32,219 nucleotides of DNA. It comes from Pseudomonadota bacterium (GTDB taxonomy: Bacteria > UBA10199 > 2-02-FULL-44-16 > JAAZCA01). Of this stretch, positions 3,140 through 13,375 are shown piece by piece. The translations under genes were made by a program, and so were the position numbers. The stretch is taken from the NCBI GenBank assembly GCA_016927275.1, contig JAFGMW010000103.1, positions 1 through 32,219 on the forward strand, read 5' to 3'. The notes beneath the pieces are model-generated. The model searched no databases. It worked only from the letters and a program-made list of their open reading frames with translations, and was not told the DNA's origin. Each line of letters begins with the position of its first letter. Within the stretch, counting starts at the first letter, position 1.

Positions 3140-4015
3140 TCAGAACAGCGCCTCCGCTCCGCCCATGGCCGCGCGGACGAAGATCGGACCGAAGACGATC
3201 ACGAAGGTCGCGGGCATTATGAAGGCCACAAGGGGGAGAAGCATCTTCTGCGAAGCGATCGCGCCCCTCTTCTCCGCGCGGGCGAACCTCTCGTCCCTGA
3301 GCCTCTCCGAGGCCGCCCTGAGCACCGGCGCCACCCCCGCGCCCAGCCTCTCCGACTGCGCGAGCAGCGCGGCGAGCGCCGATAGCGAAGGGACCGCGAG
3401 CGAGTCGGCCATGCGCCTGATCGCGTCCTGCCTGCGCACGCCCATCCTCATGGCCGCGTCCGCCTCGGCGAGCTCCCGGGAGACGATCCCGCCGGTGCGG
3501 GACGAGACCCTGGACACCGCCTGAGCGAGATCGAGCCCCGCCTCCACGGAGAGTGTGATGAGGTCCAGTGCGAAGGGGAGCTCCCTCTCCACGGCCTCGC
3601 GCCTGGCCCTCGCCAGCGAGCGGAGCCGCGCCATGACGATCGCGAAGCAGAGCGCCCCCGCGGCGAGCGCGCCCGGCGCCCGGTTTGAATCAGATAGGAG
3701 ATACGCCGCGACGGAGACGGCGACGCCCGAGGAGATCCAGAGGAGCGCAAAGCCCGCGGGGTCGAGTCCTGACATCCCTGCGCCCTTGAGCCTGAGCCTC
3801 ACGCTCTCCACCGGGATCAGGCGCAGGAGTGCGGGCGCCCTCTTCTCTGCGAGGCGGGCGAGGGCCGAGCATGCCGGCGCCAGCCTGCGGGGCCGCACAT
3901 CTCCTCTGTTTTCCACGGCACCCAGCATCTCCCTGCGGGCGGCCGCCGCGAGCCACGCCCTTGCCGCCGAAGATGCGAAGAGCGAGAAGAGCGCTATGCA
4001 GAGTATCAGGTCCAT
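3140..4015 (-). CDS. tadC: Tad pilus inner-membrane platform protein TadC
   Basis: 291-residue type II secretion F (GspF) family protein, one half of the inner-membrane platform that couples the TadA ATPase to pilin extrusion. Start at ATG 4015, with GGGGAAGAG just upstream and 10 bases after the preceding stop; an in-frame start at 4048 would overlap that gene. Membrane segments: 1-23, about 90-110, about 118-135, and the C-terminal pair near 255-285 (LPLVAFIMPATFVIVFGPIFV). The conserved GspF helix bundle includes ELPFALDLITLSVEAGLDL and, further on, SERLGAGVAPVLR. The region ends with the usual KMLLPL motif before the last membrane segments. It is separated from tadB by one gene of unknown function, which is unusual because tadB and tadC are normally adjacent. 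Confidence 0.93.
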   Translation of the reverse strand: MDLILCIALFSLFASSAARAWLAAAARREMLGAVENRGDVRPRRLAPACSALARLAEKRAPALLRLIPVESVRLRLKGAGMSGLDPAGFALLWISSGVAVSVAAYLLSDSNRAPGALAAGALCFAIVMARLRSLARARREAVERELPFALDLITLSVEAGLDLAQAVSRVSSRTGGIVSRELAEADAAMRMGVRRQDAIRRMADSLAVPSLSALAALLAQSERLGAGVAPVLRAASERLRDERFARAEKRGAIASQKMLLPLVAFIMPATFVIVFGPIFVRAAMGGAEALF

Positions 4016-4025
4016 TCTCTTCCCC

Positions 4026-4637
4026 TCACGGCAGCGCGGCCCACGCAACCTCCACCGTGTACGCCGAGTCTGCGCCCGCGATCCCTATCTCCCAGATCGC
4101 AGGGGCGAGCCGGCCCTCGAATCTCATCTCCGCGGCAAGAGGGGTGAGGCGCCTGCCGCACAGCAGCGCGCGGCCCGCGCCCGAGACCGCGGCCTCCCTT
4201 GACGCCGGACCGCCCTCTTTTTCGGCGCGCGATCTCCCCTCGACCGAGACCGACCACTCGCCGCAGGGCGAATCCGCGCGCGCGGCCCCGTCGGTTCGGC
4301 GCGCCCTCGCGAACGCGACGACCGGGGGCATATTCTCGCCTGCGATCGTGAACGAGGCGCTCATCTCTTTCGCATCGAGGGATCCGTCCGATGCTGCAAA
4401 TGGCCAGAAGACGCCGCCCGCCAGCTCGGACCAACCCACGCCTGCGAATCCCGGGCTTCTGCCGGGATCGAAGAGGACCTGCCGGTTCACGCCGCTCGCT
4501 TGCCCCTCGGCCGGCCCCTTCGCCCTCGAGACGAAGCGGTACTCCCTGGGCGCCGTTGCCCCGAGCGCGCACGGAATCGACGCTGTCGCGATCACCGCAG
4601 CATGCAAAAGTATGGCTGTCGCAACTCTCATGCGCAT
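4026..4637 (-). CDS. Exported protein of unknown function between tadB and tadC
   Basis: 203 residues with a clear signal peptide (about 1-26, cleavage after a motif like ALGA). The mature part is not recognised; it is rich in short beta-like stretches and contains three Cys (residues near 121, 157 and one in the signal peptide), and ends in a strand-like IAGADSAYTVEVAWAALP. It follows tadB after 3 bases and precedes tadC by 10 bases, so it is certainly in the operon. A periplasmic assembly factor or minor pilus-associated protein would fit the position, but nothing in the sequence proves it. Confidence 0.6.
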   Translation of the reverse strand: MRMRVATAILLHAAVIATASIPCALGATAPREYRFVSRAKGPAEGQASGVNRQVLFDPGRSPGFAGVGWSELAGGVFWPFAASDGSLDAKEMSASFTIAGENMPPVVAFARARRTDGAARADSPCGEWSVSVEGRSRAEKEGGPASREAAVSGAGRALLCGRRLTPLAAEMRFEGRLAPAIWEIGIAGADSAYTVEVAWAALP

Positions 4638-4640
4638 CTC

Positions 4641-5324
4641 TCACACCTTTATGGCCGCGATCCTCATGAGCCAGAGCCCGCCCGCCGCCTCCAAGAGGAG
4701 CGCGAAGATCATGAGGGCGATCCCGAGCCTGGTCGAGCACATGGGCCTCATGAACTCAGGGGCCAGGACGGCGAGCGCGGCAGCCAGGCCCCAGGGCAGC
4801 AAGAGCAGCACCGCTGCCTGCGCCCTCCCCTGCGCCGTGAGCGAATCTACCCTCCCCTTCACTCGCCTGCGCTGCTCGATCGTCTTCGCGAGCGATGAGA
4901 AGGTCTGGACGAGGTTGCCGCCGGTGCGCCTGAGCACCTCCACCGACTGCGTGACCAGCGACGCGTCCTCGGTCGGCACCCGCTCCGAGAGAGAGGCAAA
5001 CGCGGAGTCGAAGTCCTTCCCGGCGCCCTGCTCCGCCTCGATCCTCGCCAGCTCCTCTCCGAGCGGCGGGGCCAGCTCCGATGCGGCGAGCTTGACCGCC
5101 TGCTGCAGCGACAGCCCGGCCTTGAGCGCGTTGCAGAGCATGACGAGCGCCTCGGGCAGCTGTTCGTCGGCGCGGCGCGCCCTGCGGCGGCCGCGATGCG
5201 CCCGCGCGAGGCGAGAGAGCCGGCCGAAGGCCAGAGGGGATTTCGATCGGAGCAGCGCGAACGCGGATATCGCCGCCGATAGGCCGAAGAAAAGGGCCGC
5301 CGCAGCGAAGATGAGCCCGCTCAT
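4641..5324 (-). CDS. tadB: Tad pilus inner-membrane platform protein TadB
   Basis: 227-residue GspF-family protein. The start is ATG 5324, which shares ATGA with the stop codon of the ATPase gene; the longer frame up to 5714 is only the antisense-free overlap of the ATPase gene. One N-terminal membrane segment (1-25), a basic linker (RRRARRADEQ), the GspF helical domain (LPEALVMLCNALKAGLSLQQAV, about 60-165, with RRTGGNLVQTF) and two C-terminal membrane segments (LLLLPWGLAAALAVL and LGIALMIFALLLEAAGGLWL). It is shorter than typical TadB, which has about 300 residues and an extra N-terminal membrane helix. It should pair with TadC to form the platform above the TadA hexamer. Confidence 0.92.
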   Translation of the reverse strand: MSGLIFAAAALFFGLSAAISAFALLRSKSPLAFGRLSRLARAHRGRRRARRADEQLPEALVMLCNALKAGLSLQQAVKLAASELAPPLGEELARIEAEQGAGKDFDSAFASLSERVPTEDASLVTQSVEVLRRTGGNLVQTFSSLAKTIEQRRRVKGRVDSLTAQGRAQAAVLLLLPWGLAAALAVLAPEFMRPMCSTRLGIALMIFALLLEAAGGLWLMRIAAIKV

Positions 5325-7261
5325 GCGATCCCCCTGATCCCGTGCGAATGCCCCGTCCCGTCGGCGCCGCAGCGGTGCGCGGGGGCGAGCCCGGTCGAGA
5401 TGAGCATCCCCGAGCGCTGGTCGAACGCGGCCAGCGTCTGCATGCTGATGACCTGTCCCTCCATCCCGGTTATCTCCGATATCTCCACGACCTTCCTCTG
5501 TGCGCCCACCCTCGCCAGCTGCACGATCACCCCTATGGCACGTGCGATCTGCTCGCGGACAGCGCAGATAGGCAGGTCGAGGCCCGCCATGAGCGCCATG
5601 GTCTCGAGCCGCGACACGGCGTCGCGCGGGGAGTTGGCGTGCACCGTCGTGAGCGAACCCTCGTGGCCGGTGTTCATGGCCTGGAGCATGTCGACCGCCT
5701 CCGCCCCCCTGCACTCGCCCACCACTATCCTGTCAGGCCTCATCCTGAGCGCGTTTCTGACGAGGTCCCTGATCGATATCGCGCCCGCGCCCTCGACGTT
5801 GGGCGGCCGGGCCTCCAGCCTCACCACGTGGGTCGTTCTGATCCGGAGCTCCGCCGCGTCCTCTATCGTGACGATGCGCTCACCGTCGGCTATCTCCGAG
5901 GCGAGCGCGGCGAGCATCGTGGTCTTTCCCGTGCCGGTCCCGCCCGACACCACCATGGATACGCGCGACGCCACGCACTCGGAGAGGAATCGCGCCGCGT
6001 CGGAGGTCATGCTCCCCCTGCGGACGAGCTCGCGGAGGTCCCAGCTTGCGCGGCCGAACCTGCGCACCGTGAGCGCCGGCCCGTCTATCGCGACGGGGCC
6101 GATGACCGCGTGCAGCCTCGATCCGTCCGGGAGCCTGGCGTCAACCATGGGCGAGGCCTCGTCGACCCTGCGCCCGGTCGGGGCGAGCATCCGCTCGATA
6201 ACCGACAGCAGCTGAGAGGAGTCTGCGAATGAGAGCCCGGCCCTGGCGAGCCTCCCCTCCTTCTCGAAGAAGATCAGCCCTGGCCCGCTGACCATGATCT
6301 CGGTGACGCCGTCGTCTTTGAGCAGGTACTCGAGCGGGCCGAACCCCAGTATCTCGTCGACCGCGCACGACGCAGCCTCGTCCGCGCGCGCGCCCGGGGC
6401 CCCGCGCGACTTGAGCGCCTCCGCCGCCCTGAGGGCGACGGCCGCAACCGCTCGCCTCAGCTCGTCCCTGTCGCCGCGCCTGTTCGCGTCGCCGACTATC
6501 TTTTCGAATTCCGGGTCCCGCCTTATGCCAGCCAGGATCTCCTCGACCCCTTCGGGCCGCGCGATTTCACGAACCCCTCTCTCAGCATGATTCGCGACAT
6601 CCCGCACCGAGGCGCGGCGCGGGATCGCCCTGTCCATGAGCCTGCCTGCGAGCGATGCCGCGTCCAGTCCGTCGCCCCAGGATTGAATGCCCCACCGCCC
6701 GGCCAGCCGCGCCGCCACCTCCCTGTCGAAAGGCGCCATGCAGAATCCGGCGGGGGAGACCGCGCCGGGGGAGTCGAGCAGCCTTTTGACCGCCGATCCT
6801 GCGAGATTGATCGGCGCGGGGCCGTCCGCATGGACGCACAGCATCGCGGGTATCCCGGGCACGCGGGCCAATGCCGACTCAAGCCAGCCTGCGGCTCCCC
6901 TTGAATCGGGGCTCGCCTCCAAGGCGACGAGCGCGATGTCGTACGCCGACTCGATCGATTCGATAGTGCCGTCGTCCATCTCCGATTCTGCAAGCGAGAG
7001 CAGGCCTGCGCGGCCCGGGCGCGGCGACAGATACCCGCGGAGCGACCGGCCGGACAACCCGGCCCCGTTCGCCCTGAGCTCAGCGACGGTCCTCGCGCCC
7101 TCGACCGCTCCGACGGACCCGGCGATCACGAGCGCATCGATCCCGCCGGAGACGAGCCATGATGCGACCCTGTCCGCGCACGCGCAGCGGCCCGCCCCCC
7201 CGCAGCATATCATTGCGGCCCACAGGCATCTTGCCGCCGACATGTCGTTTCTCATCTCCAT
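5321..7261 (-). CDS. tadA: TadA ATPase with N-terminal degenerate TadZ/MinD-like domain
   Basis: 646 residues. Residues about 225-646 are a complete TadA/CpaF type IV secretion-like ATPase: N-terminal CpaF domain (ILGFGPLEYLLKDDGVTEIMV), Walker A GGTGTGKTT at 440-448, Asp box IVTIEDAAELRI, Walker B region around Glu516 (RIVVGECRG) and the His box (TGHEGSLTTVHANS). It hydrolyses ATP to drive Flp pilin assembly. Residues 1-215 look like a ParA/MinD fold as in TadZ/CpaE: CCGGAGRCACADRV sits where the deviant Walker A belongs but lacks the Lys and Thr, followed by YDIALVALE and GFCMAPFDREVAARLAGRWG, typical of the family's later strands. So it appears to be a TadZ-TadA fusion with a pseudo-ATPase half. 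GAAGGAGG lies 11 bases before ATG 7261, which overlaps the secretin gene; ATG 7255 (ATGA overlap) is an alternative start. Confidence 0.92.
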   Translation of the reverse strand: MEMRNDMSAARCLWAAMICCGGAGRCACADRVASWLVSGGIDALVIAGSVGAVEGARTVAELRANGAGLSGRSLRGYLSPRPGRAGLLSLAESEMDDGTIESIESAYDIALVALEASPDSRGAAGWLESALARVPGIPAMLCVHADGPAPINLAGSAVKRLLDSPGAVSPAGFCMAPFDREVAARLAGRWGIQSWGDGLDAASLAGRLMDRAIPRRASVRDVANHAERGVREIARPEGVEEILAGIRRDPEFEKIVGDANRRGDRDELRRAVAAVALRAAEALKSRGAPGARADEAASCAVDEILGFGPLEYLLKDDGVTEIMVSGPGLIFFEKEGRLARAGLSFADSSQLLSVIERMLAPTGRRVDEASPMVDARLPDGSRLHAVIGPVAIDGPALTVRRFGRASWDLRELVRRGSMTSDAARFLSECVASRVSMVVSGGTGTGKTTMLAALASEIADGERIVTIEDAAELRIRTTHVVRLEARPPNVEGAGAISIRDLVRNALRMRPDRIVVGECRGAEAVDMLQAMNTGHEGSLTTVHANSPRDAVSRLETMALMAGLDLPICAVREQIARAIGVIVQLARVGAQRKVVEISEITGMEGQVISMQTLAAFDQRSGMLISTGLAPAHRCGADGTGHSHGIRGIA

Positions 7262-8766
7262 TTTTTCGGGCGCCTCCTTCTGCTCGGATCGCCGGCCGCC
7301 CCGTCGCCTGGCGCGCCGAAGCGCTCCGCGTGCTCCTTATTCGAGCGGTCCATCGCCATCGCCTCCTCTGCATCGAGGAAATCGCGCAGCGCCGCCTCGG
7401 CCGGCTCCGGCTGCGACATGACCCTCGGCGTCACCACGATCACGAACTCGGACCTGTTGGACTGGAAGTCCTTCGAAAGGAACAGGCTGAATATCGAGGA
7501 CGACGTGTCGGTGTCGCGCGGGACCCTGTTCCTCATCTTCACGTCGTTGTTGCGGACGATCCCGCCGAGCATGACGCTGTGGCCCAGGGGGCAGACCGCG
7601 GTGGTGGAGACGGTGTGCGTGTCGACCGCGCCGCGTATGTCGGCCGACGGCGCGGAGAGCGTCGCGGCGATCCTCAGATCCACCCCGCCCGCGACCTCGA
7701 TCGGCGAGGCCTTGATGTCGACGCCGACCCTCTTGAACTGGACCTGCTCGCCGCTCAGAAACGGGACCTCGGAGCCGCTGAATATCTGCGCCTCCTCGCC
7801 GTTCTTCACCACGACCGACGGGTTCTCGAGCACCCGGCCGTCGCCCCTCTCCCTTATGAAGCGCAGCTTGGGCACGAAGTTGAAGACGAACCCGAGCACC
7901 GATTTCCCCATGTCGCCGATCGAGCCCATGAGCCCGGCCCCGCCGCCCGCCGAGGCGGTCGCGGCTCCGCCTTGCGGAAACGAGCCCGGCGACCAGTTGA
8001 ACGCAAGCTCCCTGAGCGCCTGCTTCTTTATCTCCATGAGATGGAACTCGAGCTGGATGAGGCTCGCCCTCCCGGGGCTGCGCATGGAGTCGCGCACCTC
8101 GATGAGGTCCATGACGTGCGGCGTGTGGAGCCTCGCGATCTCGATCGCCCGCTTCGCGTCGGCCGCGGAGAAGACCGTACCCTCCAGCGCTATCCTGTCC
8201 CTCACCGCCCTCACCGTCACGCCCGGGACGTCTATGGCATCGCGTATCGCCTGCCCGGTCCTGGCCAGCACGTCCTTCGTGATCCTCACGCTGCTGCGCA
8301 CCCGCGGGTCCGATTGCGAGATCGCCTCGATCGCCCTGAAGTCGTCGGGGTCCGCCGTCGCACCCCCTATCCTCACCTTGCCGTCGCTGAGCTCGACGGT
8401 CACCCCCGCGATGCCGCCCACCGCCTGCTCCACCCTCTCGAGCGCCTCCTTGAGCGTGGTGGTGACGACCCGCACGGAGATCTCGTCCCTGATCGATCCA
8501 TCCGCGTCCCATATCGTGACCATCGTCTGCCCGCCACCCCGGGCGTTGAGGTAGATAGAGCCGCGGTCCTGCGAGACGAGGTAGTCGCACACCGAGCGGT
8601 CGGCGACAGCCACGTCGCCGATCGAATAGTCCATGGAGACGGTCTCGGACTGGCCCTTGATGAGCGTTTTCTCCGCCGCGGCCCCGGCCGCGCACGTCGA
8701 GGCGGCGAGCGTGAGCATCGCCGCCGCGGTCCAAAACAGCATGCGCGCGTTCCTGAGCCGTCTCAT
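7252..8766 (-). CDS. cpaC: Outer-membrane secretin of Tad pilus (CpaC/RcpA)
   Basis: 504 residues. Signal peptide 1-27, then the pilus secretin N-terminal domain (about 33-100; DVAVADRSVCDYLVS, IYLNARGGGQTMVTIWDADG), two BON/N1-like ring-building modules (about 105-215; VEQAVGGIAGVTVELSDGKV and IDVPGVTVRAVRDRIALEG), and the secretin barrel domain (about 245-460), recognised by VLENPSVVVKNGEEAQIFSG, EVPFLSG, VGVDIKASPIEV and VMLGGIVRNND. The C-terminal 45 residues are charged and basic. It forms the gated outer-membrane channel for the pilus. Start ATG 8766 shares ATGA with the cpaB stop and has GGGGGGCGAG upstream. Confidence 0.94.
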   Translation of the reverse strand: MRRLRNARMLFWTAAAMLTLAASTCAAGAAAEKTLIKGQSETVSMDYSIGDVAVADRSVCDYLVSQDRGSIYLNARGGGQTMVTIWDADGSIRDEISVRVVTTTLKEALERVEQAVGGIAGVTVELSDGKVRIGGATADPDDFRAIEAISQSDPRVRSSVRITKDVLARTGQAIRDAIDVPGVTVRAVRDRIALEGTVFSAADAKRAIEIARLHTPHVMDLIEVRDSMRSPGRASLIQLEFHLMEIKKQALRELAFNWSPGSFPQGGAATASAGGGAGLMGSIGDMGKSVLGFVFNFVPKLRFIRERGDGRVLENPSVVVKNGEEAQIFSGSEVPFLSGEQVQFKRVGVDIKASPIEVAGGVDLRIAATLSAPSADIRGAVDTHTVSTTAVCPLGHSVMLGGIVRNNDVKMRNRVPRDTDTSSSIFSLFLSKDFQSNRSEFVIVVTPRVMSQPEPAEAALRDFLDAEEAMAMDRSNKEHAERFGAPGDGAAGDPSRRRRPKKWR

Positions 8767-9608
8767 CTCGCCCCCCTGTATTCCTTGAAGGGCCTCCTGA
8801 GCGGGACCACCCCGCCCGCCCCCTCGGCGATGCTCGATATGGTGGTCGGCGCGGGCGGCTCGTTCGACTCCCCCTCATAGGGGGGCCTGACCGCGAGCGC
8901 GATGGACCCCGACTCCTGCGCAAAGGCGATGGCCTGGGCCTGAGCGGGGCTCACCGCGAGAGTGACGGAGACCTCGCGCGACAGCTGCCCCTGCGCAATC
9001 GCCCCGCCGAAGAGCCCCTTGCCCGCATCGGCGCCCGCCTCCCGCTCGGGAGATCCGGCGACTCTCCTCTCCACCGCCACGACCCTCGCGTCGGTCACGA
9101 GCGCCATAGTGGTGATCTCCGGAGACGAGCCTGTGCCGAGGTCGAAGGTGGCGATGAGATCGACGCGGTCGCCCGGACCGACGAGCCCGCCGGCCGCGCG
9201 CGATCGCGGAAGGGACACCGAGAATGCCCGCATGCCGGAGGCAAGGAGCGGGGCCACGCCGGTTGCGTGATCCGCCCTCCTCGCCGCGGACCTCGTGAGC
9301 TGCGAGCCCTTGCGGAGCGGCACCATGGCCACCCTCCCCTCCGCCTCCGATATCTCCCCTATCGCGCCGGGCTGCACGAAGATCGCCGGGACGCTCGATC
9401 TGCGGAGCGCCGCCCTGTCTATCGTCTCGCCGGGCGGTATGTCGCGGGCGGCGATGACCACCGGGGCCGGTTCGGCCGCCCTGGATATCTCGCCCTCCCG
9501 CCTCGCGAGGTAGGCCGAGGCGAGCAGGGCCGCAGCCAGGCCCGCCACAACGGCAGCCGCTGCCGGCCGCTCCCGGACCGCATCCCTAATGAACGCAAAT
9601 CTCTTCAT
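8763..9608 (-). CDS. cpaB: Tad pilus assembly protein CpaB/RcpC
   Basis: 281 residues. One N-terminal membrane segment or signal (about 18-34), an SAF domain (about 48-108: VVIAARDIPPGETIDRAAL, VPLRKGSQLTRSA) and the RcpC domain (about 118-240: MRAFSVSLPRSRAAGGLVGPGDRVDLIATFD, VTLAVSPAQAQAIAFAQESG). CpaB/RcpC is a periplasmic or secretin-associated factor that stabilises the secretin; SAF domains may bind carbohydrate. GGAGGTGAGG precedes ATG 9608. The gene overlaps the upstream TadE-like gene by 23 bp and the secretin gene by 4 bp. Confidence 0.93.
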   Translation of the reverse strand: MKRFAFIRDAVRERPAAAAVVAGLAAALLASAYLARREGEISRAAEPAPVVIAARDIPPGETIDRAALRRSSVPAIFVQPGAIGEISEAEGRVAMVPLRKGSQLTRSAARRADHATGVAPLLASGMRAFSVSLPRSRAAGGLVGPGDRVDLIATFDLGTGSSPEITTMALVTDARVVAVERRVAGSPEREAGADAGKGLFGGAIAQGQLSREVSVTLAVSPAQAQAIAFAQESGSIALAVRPPYEGESNEPPAPTTISSIAEGAGGVVPLRRPFKEYRGAR

Positions 9609-9943: not shown

Positions 9944-10789
9944 TCAGTCCTCTGCCTCCTCCACGCCGATCGTCCATTTAGGGACCAGCGCGGCCCTGTA
10001 GAGCGCGTCGTATCCCTCCTCGTCCGTCCACCCCTCGGCGAGGTCGCTATCCTCGACCTCCTCGATCGCGAAATCCTCGATCGAGCCGCCGTAGGCGGAG
10101 GCGGCCGCAGAGGCGTAGATGTCGATGCCCTCGGAGAGGATGGGTCCCGCTGTCAGCGGCTCGACCCTCGCGCTCGCGAACACGCCTATGGCCGCATCCC
10201 CACCTCTCTCCTTGACCAGGTATTTGAGAGCGTCGTATTCGCCGCCCTCCACGTCCTCGGGATCGAGGTAGATGTCCCCCTCGATGTGGCTGTAGCCCAC
10301 CCTCTCCCACTGCTCCTCCGGAGCGAGATCGTCCCGAAGGCGAACCTCCCCCGCTATCCGGTGCCAGGCGAAGGCCGAGGGGTAGTTCGCCGCGAGCGCG
10401 CCGGCAGCCGCGCCGGCCGATCTGGCGCGCATCGCATCCAGCACCGACGCCATCTCACCGAGCTCCGAATCGCGCTCCGCCTCGTAGCGGGCTATCCGCT
10501 GCCGGGCCGCATCTTCGTCCTGCTGGCTCGAGGCGTCGAAGTCGGCCTTCAGCCTCCTGAACGACTCGTTGATGCGCCGGTTGGATGCGGCGAGCATGTT
10601 CAGCGAATGAGCAAGCGACGCAGCACCCGCATAGGCGGCCCTGTCCGCCGCGGCCGAAAGCCTCGCGCGTGCGACCGCTATCCTTCCGATCTCGACGATC
10701 GCTATCAGCGCCGCCGCCATCAGCGGCAGGGCAGCGACGAAGAGCACGGTCACAGATCCCCTCGATCGATTCATTCGGGCCATCCGCAT
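9944..10789 (-). CDS. TadG-like pilus assembly protein
   Basis: 281 residues. The N-terminus (RSRGSVTVLFVAALPLMAAALIAIVEIGRIAVARARLSAAADRAAYAGAASLA) matches the TadG-like N-terminal domain: one membrane helix followed by the A-A-D-x-A-x-x-A-G-A motif. There is no Glu at +5, unlike TadE. The remaining 200 residues are periplasmic, acidic and rich in Glu/Asp toward the C-terminus. It lacks the von Willebrand A domain of long TadG proteins. ATG 10789 is preferred because AGGGAGG lies 9 bases upstream, giving an 18-bp overlap with the previous gene; ATG 10774, with an ATGA overlap, is the alternative. Confidence 0.85.
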   Translation of the reverse strand: MRMARMNRSRGSVTVLFVAALPLMAAALIAIVEIGRIAVARARLSAAADRAAYAGAASLAHSLNMLAASNRRINESFRRLKADFDASSQQDEDAARQRIARYEAERDSELGEMASVLDAMRARSAGAAAGALAANYPSAFAWHRIAGEVRLRDDLAPEEQWERVGYSHIEGDIYLDPEDVEGGEYDALKYLVKERGGDAAIGVFASARVEPLTAGPILSEGIDIYASAAASAYGGSIEDFAIEEVEDSDLAEGWTDEEGYDALYRAALVPKWTIGVEEAED

Positions 10790-11265
10790 GCGCTGTAGCC
10801 TCCCTCAGTCCTGCAGTACGGCGACGGCGTGTCGCCGCCCCTGAGCACCCTCTCGCCCAGCCCCTCCGGCAGCGCCGGGGTCGCCGGGCTCTTTCTCACG
10901 ACGGACCGGCTGCCGGCCGCTCCGCCGGAGAGCGCCGCGCCGGACACGGCTTCGAGCGTGAGGATGCCCTCCATCTCGTTGGAGAGACGAGTCCCTCCTG
11001 CATCGGCGATGACATCGAACGAATGTGCGCTGAACATCGACGGCGCGAGCGAGGCGTGCAGCTCAGCGCCGATCAGCCCGTCGTTGAACACCGCGGCCAC
11101 GCGCGCCGCCCTCGCTGCAGCGTGCTGCGCGACCACCGTCCGCAATCCGGTCGCCGCCATCCCGAGCACGGCGACGATGATCGCCACGGCGGCCGGCAGC
11201 ACCAGCGCGTGCTCCACCGCCACCTGTCCTCTGTCCCCACGGGATCCTTCGGCGATAATGTTCAT
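10771..11265 (-). CDS. TadE-like minor pseudopilin (first copy)
   Basis: 164 residues from ATG 11265 (an in-frame start at 11313 would place a charged tail before the leader and overlap the repeat array). Leader ending GDRG, then QVAVEHALVLPAAVAIIVAVLGMAATGL: cleavage expected after Gly, with Glu at +5, and a hydrophobic helix. The soluble domain carries two Cys near the C-terminus (PYCRTEGGYSACGW), a likely disulfide. It sits between the Flp pilin and the TadG-like gene. TadE proteins are pseudopilins that help assemble or cap the Flp pilus. Confidence 0.85.
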   Translation of the reverse strand: MNIIAEGSRGDRGQVAVEHALVLPAAVAIIVAVLGMAATGLRTVVAQHAAARAARVAAVFNDGLIGAELHASLAPSMFSAHSFDVIADAGGTRLSNEMEGILTLEAVSGAALSGGAAGSRSVVRKSPATPALPEGLGERVLRGGDTPSPYCRTEGGYSACGWPE

Positions 11266-11298
11266 GTCCTCGGCCTCAGAATGATAACTTTGTCTTCG

Positions 11299-11333
11299 CG
11301 AGTCACGAGTCACGAGTCACGAGTTACGAGTCA
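11299..11333. repeat. Heptamer tandem repeat (CGAGTCA x5) at flp stop codon
   Basis: Five 7-bp units (CGAGTCA, with one CGAGTTA). The last TCA is the complement of the flp TGA stop codon. This array separates flp from the first TadE-like gene inside the operon, so it is transcribed with them. It is a one-base variant of the unit at 307-334 and 16922-16935. Confidence 0.88.
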
Positions 11334-11528
11334 CGGATTCGGATTCGACATCTGCTGATTCGTCGTGAGCCAACCCGAGACGTTGGCCGCGAGCTCCGCC
11401 ACCGCCTGGTTGAACACCGGGATGAAGTGGCTGGCCGCGGAGACGAGCCCCAGCACCACCACCGCCACTATCAGCATGTACTCCGTGGCCGACTGTCCCC
11501 TCTTTCCCCTGAGCAGACGAAAACGCAT
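11331..11528 (-). CDS. flp: Flp/Fap-type major pilin
   Basis: 65 residues, the usual Flp prepilin size. Basic leader MRFRLLRGKRG, then QSATEYMLIVAVVVLGLVSAASHF: prepilin peptidase cleavage after Gly11 leaves Glu at +5 and Tyr at +6, the Flp signature, followed by the hydrophobic assembly helix. The mature pilin would have 54 residues with a short polar tail (TTNQQMSNPNP). GGGGAGGTGAAGG precedes ATG 11528. It is the first gene of the Tad operon, about 30 bases after the predicted sigma-54 start site, as expected for the most abundantly needed product. It would be exported through the secretin and polymerised by TadA/B/C. Confidence 0.95.
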   Translation of the reverse strand: MRFRLLRGKRGQSATEYMLIVAVVVLGLVSAASHFIPVFNQAVAELAANVSGWLTTNQQMSNPNP

Positions 11529-11569
11529 CCTTCACCTCCCCTGTGTGTGTGTTTACTTCTCCAGACAAT

Positions 11570-11584
11570 GCAGGGGCCGTGCCA
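11570..11584 (-). promoter_or_regulatory. Sigma-54 (RpoN) promoter of the Tad operon
   Basis: On the minus strand the sequence reads TGGCACGGCCCCTGC, against the sigma-54 consensus TGGCAC-N5-TTGC: only one specified base differs, and the GG (-24) and GC (-12) elements have exact spacing. The predicted start site is near 11558, giving a 30-base leader with a good ribosome binding site before flp. Confidence 0.8.
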
Positions 11585-11636
11585 AGAATGAGGCCTCGAA
11601 AAATCATGGAGTTGCAGCGCGCGGCAGCCGCGGGGG

Positions 11637-11674
11637 TGCTGCGTTTCGCTGCAGGGGTGCACAAAAACGCAGCA
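11637..11674. promoter_or_regulatory. 10-bp inverted repeat, candidate enhancer-binding site
   Basis: TGCTGCGTTT (11637-11646) and AAACGCAGCA (11665-11674) are perfect inverted complements with an 18-bp spacer. The centre is about 97 bp upstream of the predicted sigma-54 start, the normal range for a bacterial enhancer-binding protein. It also lies 13 bp upstream of the -35 of the divergent cotransporter gene, so it could serve that promoter instead or as well. Confidence 0.6.
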
Positions 11675-11687
11675 GTTCAGCGGGCCC

Positions 11688-11715
11688 TCGACATCCGGCT
11701 CCGTTTCCCTATAAT
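11688..11715 (+). promoter_or_regulatory. Sigma-70 promoter giving a leaderless cotransporter mRNA
   Basis: TCGACA (11688-11693), 16-bp spacer, then a consensus TATAAT (11710-11715). The ATG of the Na+/Pi cotransporter is at 11723, 7 bases after the -10 box, so the start site should fall on or next to the ATG. No ribosome binding site is present before this ATG. Confidence 0.7.
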
Positions 11716-11722
11716 CGCCCAC

Positions 11723-13375
11723 ATGGAGAGCTTCAGCTGGTCGGTGCTCATAGGCGGGGTGGCGTTCTTCTTCTACGGGCTCAGGCGCGCCCGCAAGGGG
11801 CTGGAGGTCATCGCGGGCGACAGGCTCAGGGCCGCCATGGGCCGCGTGACCGGCAACAGGATCTCCGCGCTCATCTTCGGCGCCTTCGTCACCATGGTGC
11901 TGCAGAGCTCCGGCGCCGCCTCCGCCATGCTCGTCTCCTTCACCGAGACGGGGCTGCTCAACCTCTTCCAGGCGAGCGCGGTGCTGCTCGGATCGGACAT
12001 CGGGACCACCCTCGTGGTCGTGCTCCTGTCCATCAAGAAGATCACCGACGTGGCGCTTCTGATCGTGGCCCTCGGCGTGGCGGTGCAGGCGTTCGGACGG
12101 AAGCGCAAGGTCCGCGACGCGGGCTCGATAGTGCTGGGCTTCGGCCTCATCTTCTACGGCATGCACCTGATGACCGCCGCAGCCTCCCCTCTCAAGGAGA
12201 GCGAGGAGGCGCTCAAGGTCTTCGCCTTTCTCTCGACCCACCCCCTGGCCACCCTCATCGGGTCCTCGATGCTGGCCGGCGTGGTGCACTCCGCGGGGAT
12301 GATCGGAATAGCCATCGCGCTCGCCTTCGCAGGCACCATCACGTTCGAGGCCTCGATCCCGATCGTGCTCGGCGCCAACATAGGCTCCTGCGTCACGGCG
12401 GTGCTGGCCTCGTTCGGGGGCGGGACCGCGGGCCGCAGGGTGGCGCTCGCGCACACGCTCACCAAGGTCATAGGGGTGGCCGCGGTCTTCCCCTTCATCT
12501 CTTACGCCGCAAAGCTCACCGGAGACGCAGACGCATTCATATCAGGCGTCTTCCCGAACTACGGGGCGGGAGTCGCATCCAAGATCGCGCTGACCCACAT
12601 ACTCTTCAACCTGGCGATCGCCGCGGTCTTCACGCCGCTGCTCAAGCCGCTCGTGAAGCTGGTGGAGATCATCCTCCCCATGCCCCCGCCCAGGGAGGAG
12701 CCGTTCGGCCCGCTGTACCTGGACAAGTCGGCGCTGCAGACCCCGGCCATCGCCTTCGCGCAGGCCAAGCGCGAGATCATGCGGCTCGGCTCCATCGCCC
12801 AGCAGCTGACCGCCGACAGCCTGCGCATGTTCAGCAAGGGGGAGGAGGTCCGGGACGTGATCGAGAGGATGGAGGCGGAGGACGACAAGATCGACATCCT
12901 CGAGAAGGCCATCCGCTTCTACCTCGCGCAGGTCGCGACCGAGCGCATGTCGGAGGACCAGGCCCGCATGCAGATAGCGCTGGTCGCCATCGCCTCGGGC
13001 ATGGAGGAGGTGGGCGACATAATATCGAAGGAGCTCGCGTCGCTCGCGCGCAAGAAGGCGCAGTGGCGCAGGCTCTTCTCCGACCAGGGATGGCGCGATC
13101 TGAGGGATTTTCAGGCCATGGTGATGGACAACTTCAACCTGACGATGCTGGCGTTGGCGCAGCCGCACAAGGAGATCGCGCTGAAGCTCCGCCGCCACGA
13201 GGAGCACATGAACGACGTGGAGCAGCAGCTCCGGCAGGGACACATAACCCGACTGCACCAGGGGCTCAAGGAGACCTTCGACACGAGCTCGATCCACCTG
13301 GACATACTCGCCAACCTCCGCAGGATCAACTCGCGCATCACTCGAATCGCCGAGATGGCCTGCGAAGGAACGTAG
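11723..13375 (+). CDS. Na+/phosphate cotransporter with PhoU domain
   Basis: 550 residues, NptA/YjbB family. Two copies of the Na/Pi symporter core occupy about 1-330 with about eight membrane helices. The signature QSSGAASAML and its second-half counterpart VHSAGMIGIAIA are visible, each followed by a G-x-N/D-I-G-(S/T) motif (LGSDIGTTLV, LGANIGSCVTAV). Residues about 350-550 are a cytoplasmic PhoU-like helical bundle (IERMEAEDDKIDILEKAI, LRRHEEHMNDVEQQL). The protein would couple phosphate or a related anion to Na+ movement; in some relatives the direction is export. The start was set at ATG 11723, where the first membrane helix begins; the in-frame upstream codons overlap the regulatory region. 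The gene stands alone and ends in a strong terminator. Confidence 0.9.
   Translation: MESFSWSVLIGGVAFFFYGLRRARKGLEVIAGDRLRAAMGRVTGNRISALIFGAFVTMVLQSSGAASAMLVSFTETGLLNLFQASAVLLGSDIGTTLVVVLLSIKKITDVALLIVALGVAVQAFGRKRKVRDAGSIVLGFGLIFYGMHLMTAAASPLKESEEALKVFAFLSTHPLATLIGSSMLAGVVHSAGMIGIAIALAFAGTITFEASIPIVLGANIGSCVTAVLASFGGGTAGRRVALAHTLTKVIGVAAVFPFISYAAKLTGDADAFISGVFPNYGAGVASKIALTHILFNLAIAAVFTPLLKPLVKLVEIILPMPPPREEPFGPLYLDKSALQTPAIAFAQAKREIMRLGSIAQQLTADSLRMFSKGEEVRDVIERMEAEDDKIDILEKAIRFYLAQVATERMSEDQARMQIALVAIASGMEEVGDIISKELASLARKKAQWRRLFSDQGWRDLRDFQAMVMDNFNLTMLALAQPHKEIALKLRRHEEHMNDVEQQLRQGHITRLHQGLKETFDTSSIHLDILANLRRINSRITRIAEMACEGT

Follow-up and report, generated by a model that had tools for sequence, protein, structure and literature searches.

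A sigma-54 promoter and tandem operators ahead of the flp-Tad pilus genes probably belong to a competence-type regulon

The 32,219-nt stretch of DNA analysed here (the window) carries the genes of a Tad pilus. Ahead of flp, the gene of the major pilin, we found a sigma-54 promoter and two tandem copies of a 19-bp operator that recurs before sigma-54 promoters of competence-type genes in related genomes. In our best reading, which we consider probable, the Tad pilus is part of a sigma-54 regulon of competence type that would be controlled by an enhancer-binding protein (EBP) with FHA domains. The sites, their conservation, their phasing and the content of the regulon were taken directly from the sequence; the identity of the activator, a kinase input, DNA uptake and read-through into the operon are what we infer. 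Comparisons were made between the genome of the window (G000) and three relatives (G001-G003), which together represent four genera of one family (f1), and within a set of 46 genomes of the phylum.

Results

The Tad operon and its promoter

The pilus genes are located on the minus strand. The flp gene (11331-11528) encodes a Tad major pilin of 65 aa (MRFRLLRGKRG/QSATEYMLIV...), for which orthologues were found in all four family genomes and in 13 of the 46 genomes of the phylum. It is followed by a second gene that is TadE-like by appearance and has no family hit (10771-11313) and by genes for a TadG/TadE-like protein (9944-10789, PF13400), RcpC/CpaB (8763-9608, PF16976), the RcpA/CpaC secretin (7252-8766, PF00263 and PF13629), the TadA/CpaF ATPase (5321-7261, PF00437) and the T2SSF proteins TadB (4641-5714) and TadC (3140-4048, both PF00482). 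With flp, CpaB, secretin, TadA, TadB and TadC together, the locus qualifies as a Tad operon. TadZ and the prepilin peptidase TadV gave no hit among the scanned ORFs, several of which match no family, and an NCBIfam scan of the Tad ORFs provided weak hits only. An operon of 14 genes, as counted in the earlier note, was not confirmed: we count about 13 ORFs in the same direction, several of them lacking family hits. A search of contigs for Flp returned one named relative, Deltaproteobacteria bacterium RIFCSPHIGHO2_01_FULL_43_49. On the plus strand a divergent gene (11723-13375) encodes a protein that by eye resembles Na/Pi cotransporters. A sigma-70-type promoter of this gene, TCGACA - 16 bp - TATAAT, is seen in the sequence at 11688-11715; TATAAT lies 7 nt before the ATG, which is a leaderless arrangement, and both TATAAT and TCGACA are kept in G003.

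The predicted sigma-54 (-24/-12) promoter of flp (TGGCACGGCCCCTGCA, 11569-11584, minus strand) can be regarded as established by its sequence. Within it, TGGCACGGCCCCTGC (11584-11570) has the exact GG-N10-GC spacing, and its sole departure from TGGCAC-N5-TTGC is a C for the first T of TTGC. For the pattern TGGCAYGNNNNBTGCW the site is the sole exact match in the 32-kb window, while four matches against 1.5 expected are obtained if one mismatch is permitted. The flp ATG at 11528 is located 42 nt past the -12 C at 11570. Transcription is predicted to start 12 nt past the -12 C, at about 11558 (11556-11560), such that the flp leader would measure about 30 nt. A good Shine-Dalgarno sequence precedes the start codon (GGGGAGGTGAAGGATG, 11526-11541). 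The promoter proposed earlier, of RpoN type with exact -24/-12 spacing and about 30 bases ahead of the flp start, is thereby recovered.

The genome also encodes the corresponding sigma factor: an rpoN gene, on which that proposal depended, is present on contig C16 (PF04552, E 1.3e-61). A strict sigma-54 pattern matched 21 times in this genome compared to 5 times for the reversed control, and 86 against 11 times in the four family genomes. When the upstream regions of related Tad operons were compared, a sigma-54 site was found in 4 of 4 family genomes and in six more. Including the three relatives, nine other genomes of the phylum thus carry a comparable site ahead of flp or of a preceding small flp-like gene: it lies before flp itself in all four family genera and in G021, and before the small flp-like gene in G004, G019, G023, G036 and G037. 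Some loci of family f16 have no sigma-54 site in the 330 bp ahead of flp, and their candidate sites are located farther upstream. At three f16 loci (L014, L016, L019) the ORF preceding flp resembles four-helix-bundle (23S intervening-sequence) proteins, again with the nearest sigma-54-like sites farther upstream. At five loci of other families (L013, L015, L017, L020, L021) the small flp-like gene between sigma-54 site and flp has no evident Shine-Dalgarno sequence.

Tandem operators upstream of flp

Upstream of the promoter we identified two copies of a 19-bp palindromic operator with the consensus GTGCAGCGWWWCGCTGCAC. On the minus strand the proximal operator O1 (CTGCAGCGAAACGCAGCAC, 11636-11654) is centred at about -87 and the distal operator O2 (CTGCTGCGTTTTTGTGCAC, 11657-11675) at about -108. 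Since some of the scored promoters had also been used to train the operator model, a second model was built without the flp sequence, which served as control together with downstream regions. With this model O1 gave the best score in the 32-kb window (27.5) and O2 the second best (19.5), the third-best position reaching 7.5. In the genome search O1 has two mismatches to GTGCAGCGNNNCGCTGCAC. The distance between both operators is 21 bp, and a tandem arrangement at 20-21 bp recurs at C1, C14, C20 and C61. Being located beyond about -70, in tandem and in helical phase, the flp dyads have the properties of EBP upstream sites.

In this region the earlier note had described a perfect 10-bp inverted repeat centred near -97 and had taken it for the enhancer. 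The repeat itself is exact: its arms TGCTGCGTTT and AAACGCAGCA occupy 11674-11665 and 11646-11637, with the centre at 11655.5, i.e. at about -97. A perfect 10-bp repeat with a spacer of up to 40 nt was, however, obtained in 35 of 3000 shuffles of the flp intergenic region (about 1%), such that by itself the palindrome is only slightly unusual. The genome search for it returned one occurrence only, and its arms are not co-conserved in the syntenic relative G003. We therefore rejected the palindrome as a functional unit in favour of two operators. An upstream enhancer near -97 stands, while the unit is the 19-bp operator, of whose two copies the inverted repeat (11637-11674) merely contains pieces.

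The operators sit in a 194-bp intergenic region that is common to flp and the divergent gene, and could for this reason also serve the latter. One may go further and assume that they regulate the Na/Pi-cotransporter-like gene while the sigma-54 site is incidental, in line with the common region and with the conserved -35/-10 promoter of that gene. This assumption is hardly credible, since flp of G002 has operator and sigma-54 site despite a different upstream neighbour and since elsewhere the operator tracks sigma-54 sites.

The operator at other sigma-54 promoters

The association with sigma-54 sites was quantified in the four family genomes. Around 85 strict sigma-54 sites, TGCA-N3-9-TGCA dyads were found 25 times in 17 kb of upstream sequence compared to once in 16.7 kb of downstream sequence. 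Operator scores over 89 sigma-54 sites were bimodal, with 25 of them at 15 or above and the next at 7.9. None of the 85 downstream control regions carries an operator, their best score being 3.1. Relative to the promoter, the operator centres are in phase with a period of about 10.5 bp (Rayleigh p ~2e-6), as expected if the bound activator has to be turned towards the polymerase.

A search of the genome of the window provided 35 matches with up to three mismatches compared to 40 for the reversed pattern. This level is thus uninformative by itself, and only the few best AT-centred matches inform. With up to two mismatches there are eight of these, of which five are followed by a strict sigma-54 site at a distance of about 40-61 bp and two further ones by relaxed sites, namely those of comM and pgpA-cinA. 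A strong operator with one mismatch (C94:2442-2460, L165) has no sigma-54-like site nearby and is unexplained.

Palindromes of this kind could also be REP-like mobile repeats spread by Y1 (RAYT-like) transposases, some of which have a palindrome upstream. Y1 transposase genes do occur among the flanking genes, and the C94 operator is one clear strong AT-centred match away from any sigma-54 site. Against this stands that the copies are few per genome and nearly all helically phased upstream of a sigma-54 site, while numerous copies scattered independently of promoters, the hallmark of REP/RAYT systems, were not seen. The palindromes moreover recur in different genera at the orthologous promoters of comM, flp and M23. 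A mobile repeat is thus a very improbable origin. In other families, exact dyads upstream of leaderless genes (see below) did not provide a single common motif, so that this operator sequence may be confined to family f1.

Genes of the putative regulon

Operator and sigma-54 site occur together before flp-Tad in G000, G002 and G003, before comM in G000 and G003 and before pgpA-cinA in G000, G001 and G002. In G003 they also precede a small gene, behind which a ComEA-type helix-hairpin-helix protein is encoded (comEA operon). In G000 the small gene of this operon runs off the contig end, past which comEA itself would lie. G001 keeps the sigma-54 sites of flp and of the comEA operon; the operator at each of the two is weak or missing, that of comEA being weak. 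ComM, CinA and ComEA are established competence proteins. Judged by sequence, co-regulated genes of DNA uptake and processing, as expected of a competence regulon, are thus found in comM, pgpA-cinA, the comEA operon and flp-Tad. Given that these genes have the same promoter type and operator, the pilus looks like part of a jointly switched DNA-uptake programme.

The list of members is a lower bound, as the coverage of whole genomes is incomplete. It further includes a secreted metallo-beta-lactamase-fold (MBL) protein with a divergent partner in G000, of which a homologous pair exists in G020, as well as an M23 peptidase, a PEGA protein, an RHS-repeat protein, Y1 transposases and ORF6N proteins. 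The operators between the divergent MBL genes in G000 are common to both. At L178 and L186 a secreted MBL-fold protein is divergent from a conserved protein without Pfam hit, both sigma-54 sites being at leaderless spacing. In other families of the phylum comM, the MBL pair, M23, PEGA, kinase and Y1 genes are again found behind sigma-54 sites. With respect to comEC, a ComEC-C-like MBL protein alone was seen; full-length comEC and dprA are not among the genes located so far. The Y1 transposase, ORF6N, RHS and PEGA members have no obvious role in DNA uptake, and the regulon may be broader. Many operator-free sigma-54 sites in G000-G003 precede genes of predicted lipoproteins or secreted proteins that are led by a Shine-Dalgarno sequence, which suggests a second, separate sigma-54 regulon.

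Sigma-54 promoters predicted to give leaderless mRNAs

At 18 of the 85 sites in the four genomes an ATG is found 14-15 nt past the -12 C; 16 of these open an ORF of at least 80 aa, the other two being flp of G001 and G002. At this spacing the predicted leaders are 0-3 nt long, i.e. the mRNAs would be leaderless. Phylum-wide, 130 matches have the ATG at 14-15 nt compared to 31 at 22-23 nt, and a pyrimidine precedes the ATG in 107 of the former and 17 of the latter. An ATG at 14-16 nt occurs at 13 of 22 operator promoters compared to 8 of 63 others (Fisher p 5e-5). The flp mRNA itself would be leadered in the window and leaderless in the sister genera G001 and G002.

Candidate activator

A search for AAA+ activators revealed six full EBPs in the genome. 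The best candidate, proposed from its neighbourhood, is encoded on contig C53 and comprises two FHA domains, an AAA+ domain and a Fis-type HTH (HTH_8). FHA domains bind phosphothreonine. The gene stands back-to-back with an M23 peptidase gene that carries operator and sigma-54 promoter. All four f1 genomes and G023 retain the M23/FHA-EBP pair, and in four of these five genomes M23 is preceded by a sigma-54 site; in G003 the neighbourhood is retained together with operator and sigma-54 site. In G000 and G037 a Ser/Thr kinase gene starts 14-15 nt behind a sigma-54 site; possibly, a Ser/Thr kinase provides the input to the FHA-EBP.

The operator may instead belong to another of the six EBPs, i.e. 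the C117 trio, the C116 regulator or a second FHA-EBP on C17, with the C53 protein being a mere neighbour. The C117 trio is widespread: three tandem EBP genes as at C117:22344-25709 recur in many genomes across the phylum, whether or not these contain flp. Scanning these loci, no operator was found near the C117, C17 or C116 EBP genes, whereas G003 retains the C53/M23 neighbourhood along with its operator and sigma-54 site, and in G001, G002 and G023 the M23 and FHA-EBP genes are still adjacent. We thus consider another EBP unlikely, yet worth bearing in mind.

The earlier note had proposed that an activator dedicated to the Tad operon binds the palindrome and switches on the sigma-54 promoter. 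Activation of the EBP type is supported, promoter and palindrome both exist, and a sigma-54 regulator of flp-type pilin genes is known from Desulfovibrio vulgaris (DVU2114, PMC3333781). The activator would, however, not be reserved for the pilus, because this operator also precedes the comM, pgpA-cinA and comEA promoters and, in total, about 25 sigma-54 promoters in the four genomes. The palindrome is furthermore not conserved as a unit. A local dedicated EBP was rejected, since in none of 11 genomes with flp does the contig of flp carry an EBP gene. Overall, a dedicated activator appears improbable.

Discussion

Our favoured mechanism is the following. The sigma-54 RNA polymerase would transcribe flp from the promoter at 11584-11569 and presumably also the Tad operon behind it. 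An EBP, for which the FHA-domain protein on contig C53 is the best candidate, would bind O1 and O2, two helical turns apart on one face of the helix, and open the promoter by ATP hydrolysis. The same element would control comM, pgpA-cinA, the comEA operon, the secreted MBL-fold protein, the peptidoglycan peptidase and others. The Tad pilus would then probably serve to capture DNA within a competence-type programme whose parts are switched together, possibly by way of a Ser/Thr kinase. The step from regulation to DNA capture is suggested by the operator and sigma-54 site common to flp-Tad and the competence-type genes. A wider scheme, in which competence throughout the phylum is a sigma-54 regulon acting via a kinase-responsive FHA-EBP, with Tad as uptake pilus where present and with much of it leaderless, the distance from the -12 element determining the start codon, is a tentative extrapolation that we rather doubt than favour.

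The favoured mechanism gives Tad pili a testable role as DNA-uptake pili in an uncultured lineage and names a candidate switch, and the 19-bp operator allows the regulon to be listed in related genomes. Among papers outside subscription journals we found no published competence-type gene set under sigma-54 with a common EBP operator. In a partial literature search no sigma-54 class of leaderless mRNAs was found either; where a promoter element is named, it is of sigma-70 type. Sigma-54 promoters with the start codon at the predicted start site would thus be a second bulk route to leaderless mRNAs, which raises the question how translation is tied to activation by the EBP.

Leaderless mRNAs as such are familiar. 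In Leptospira many mRNAs likewise have little or no leader (PMC5243855). In Deinococcus-Thermus, according to PMC12340547, a promoter element is likewise close to the ATG and many mRNAs have little or no leader; there the ATG-adjacent element is a sigma-70-type -10, whereas here it is the -12 element of sigma-54, 14-15 nt upstream of the ATG.

Liberibacter crescens takes up DNA by means of its Tad pili, and Micrococcus luteus needs Tad pili as well (PMC8513845). The presence of competence proteins in the regulon, together with this role elsewhere, leads to the competence-type reading. As in these two species the Tad pilus is tied here to natural transformation, though the link is common regulation as seen in sequence only; the accessible part of that source does not describe sigma-54 control. 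There is also a precedent for a Tad-type pilin under sigma-54 control: DVU2114, a sigma-54-dependent response regulator of D. vulgaris, was shown to target flp-type pilin genes that precede Tad assembly genes (PMC3333781). The flp gene studied here resembles these in its sigma-54 control. DVU2114 is, however, a response regulator with pilus targets, while here the candidate is an unlinked FHA-type EBP and the operator is common to competence-type genes. FHA-domain EBPs acting with sigma-54 are likewise found in Myxococcus xanthus (Jelsbak et al. 2005, as cited in PMC12288465). According to the same account they serve fruiting-body development, whereas the candidate described here would serve pilus and DNA-uptake genes.
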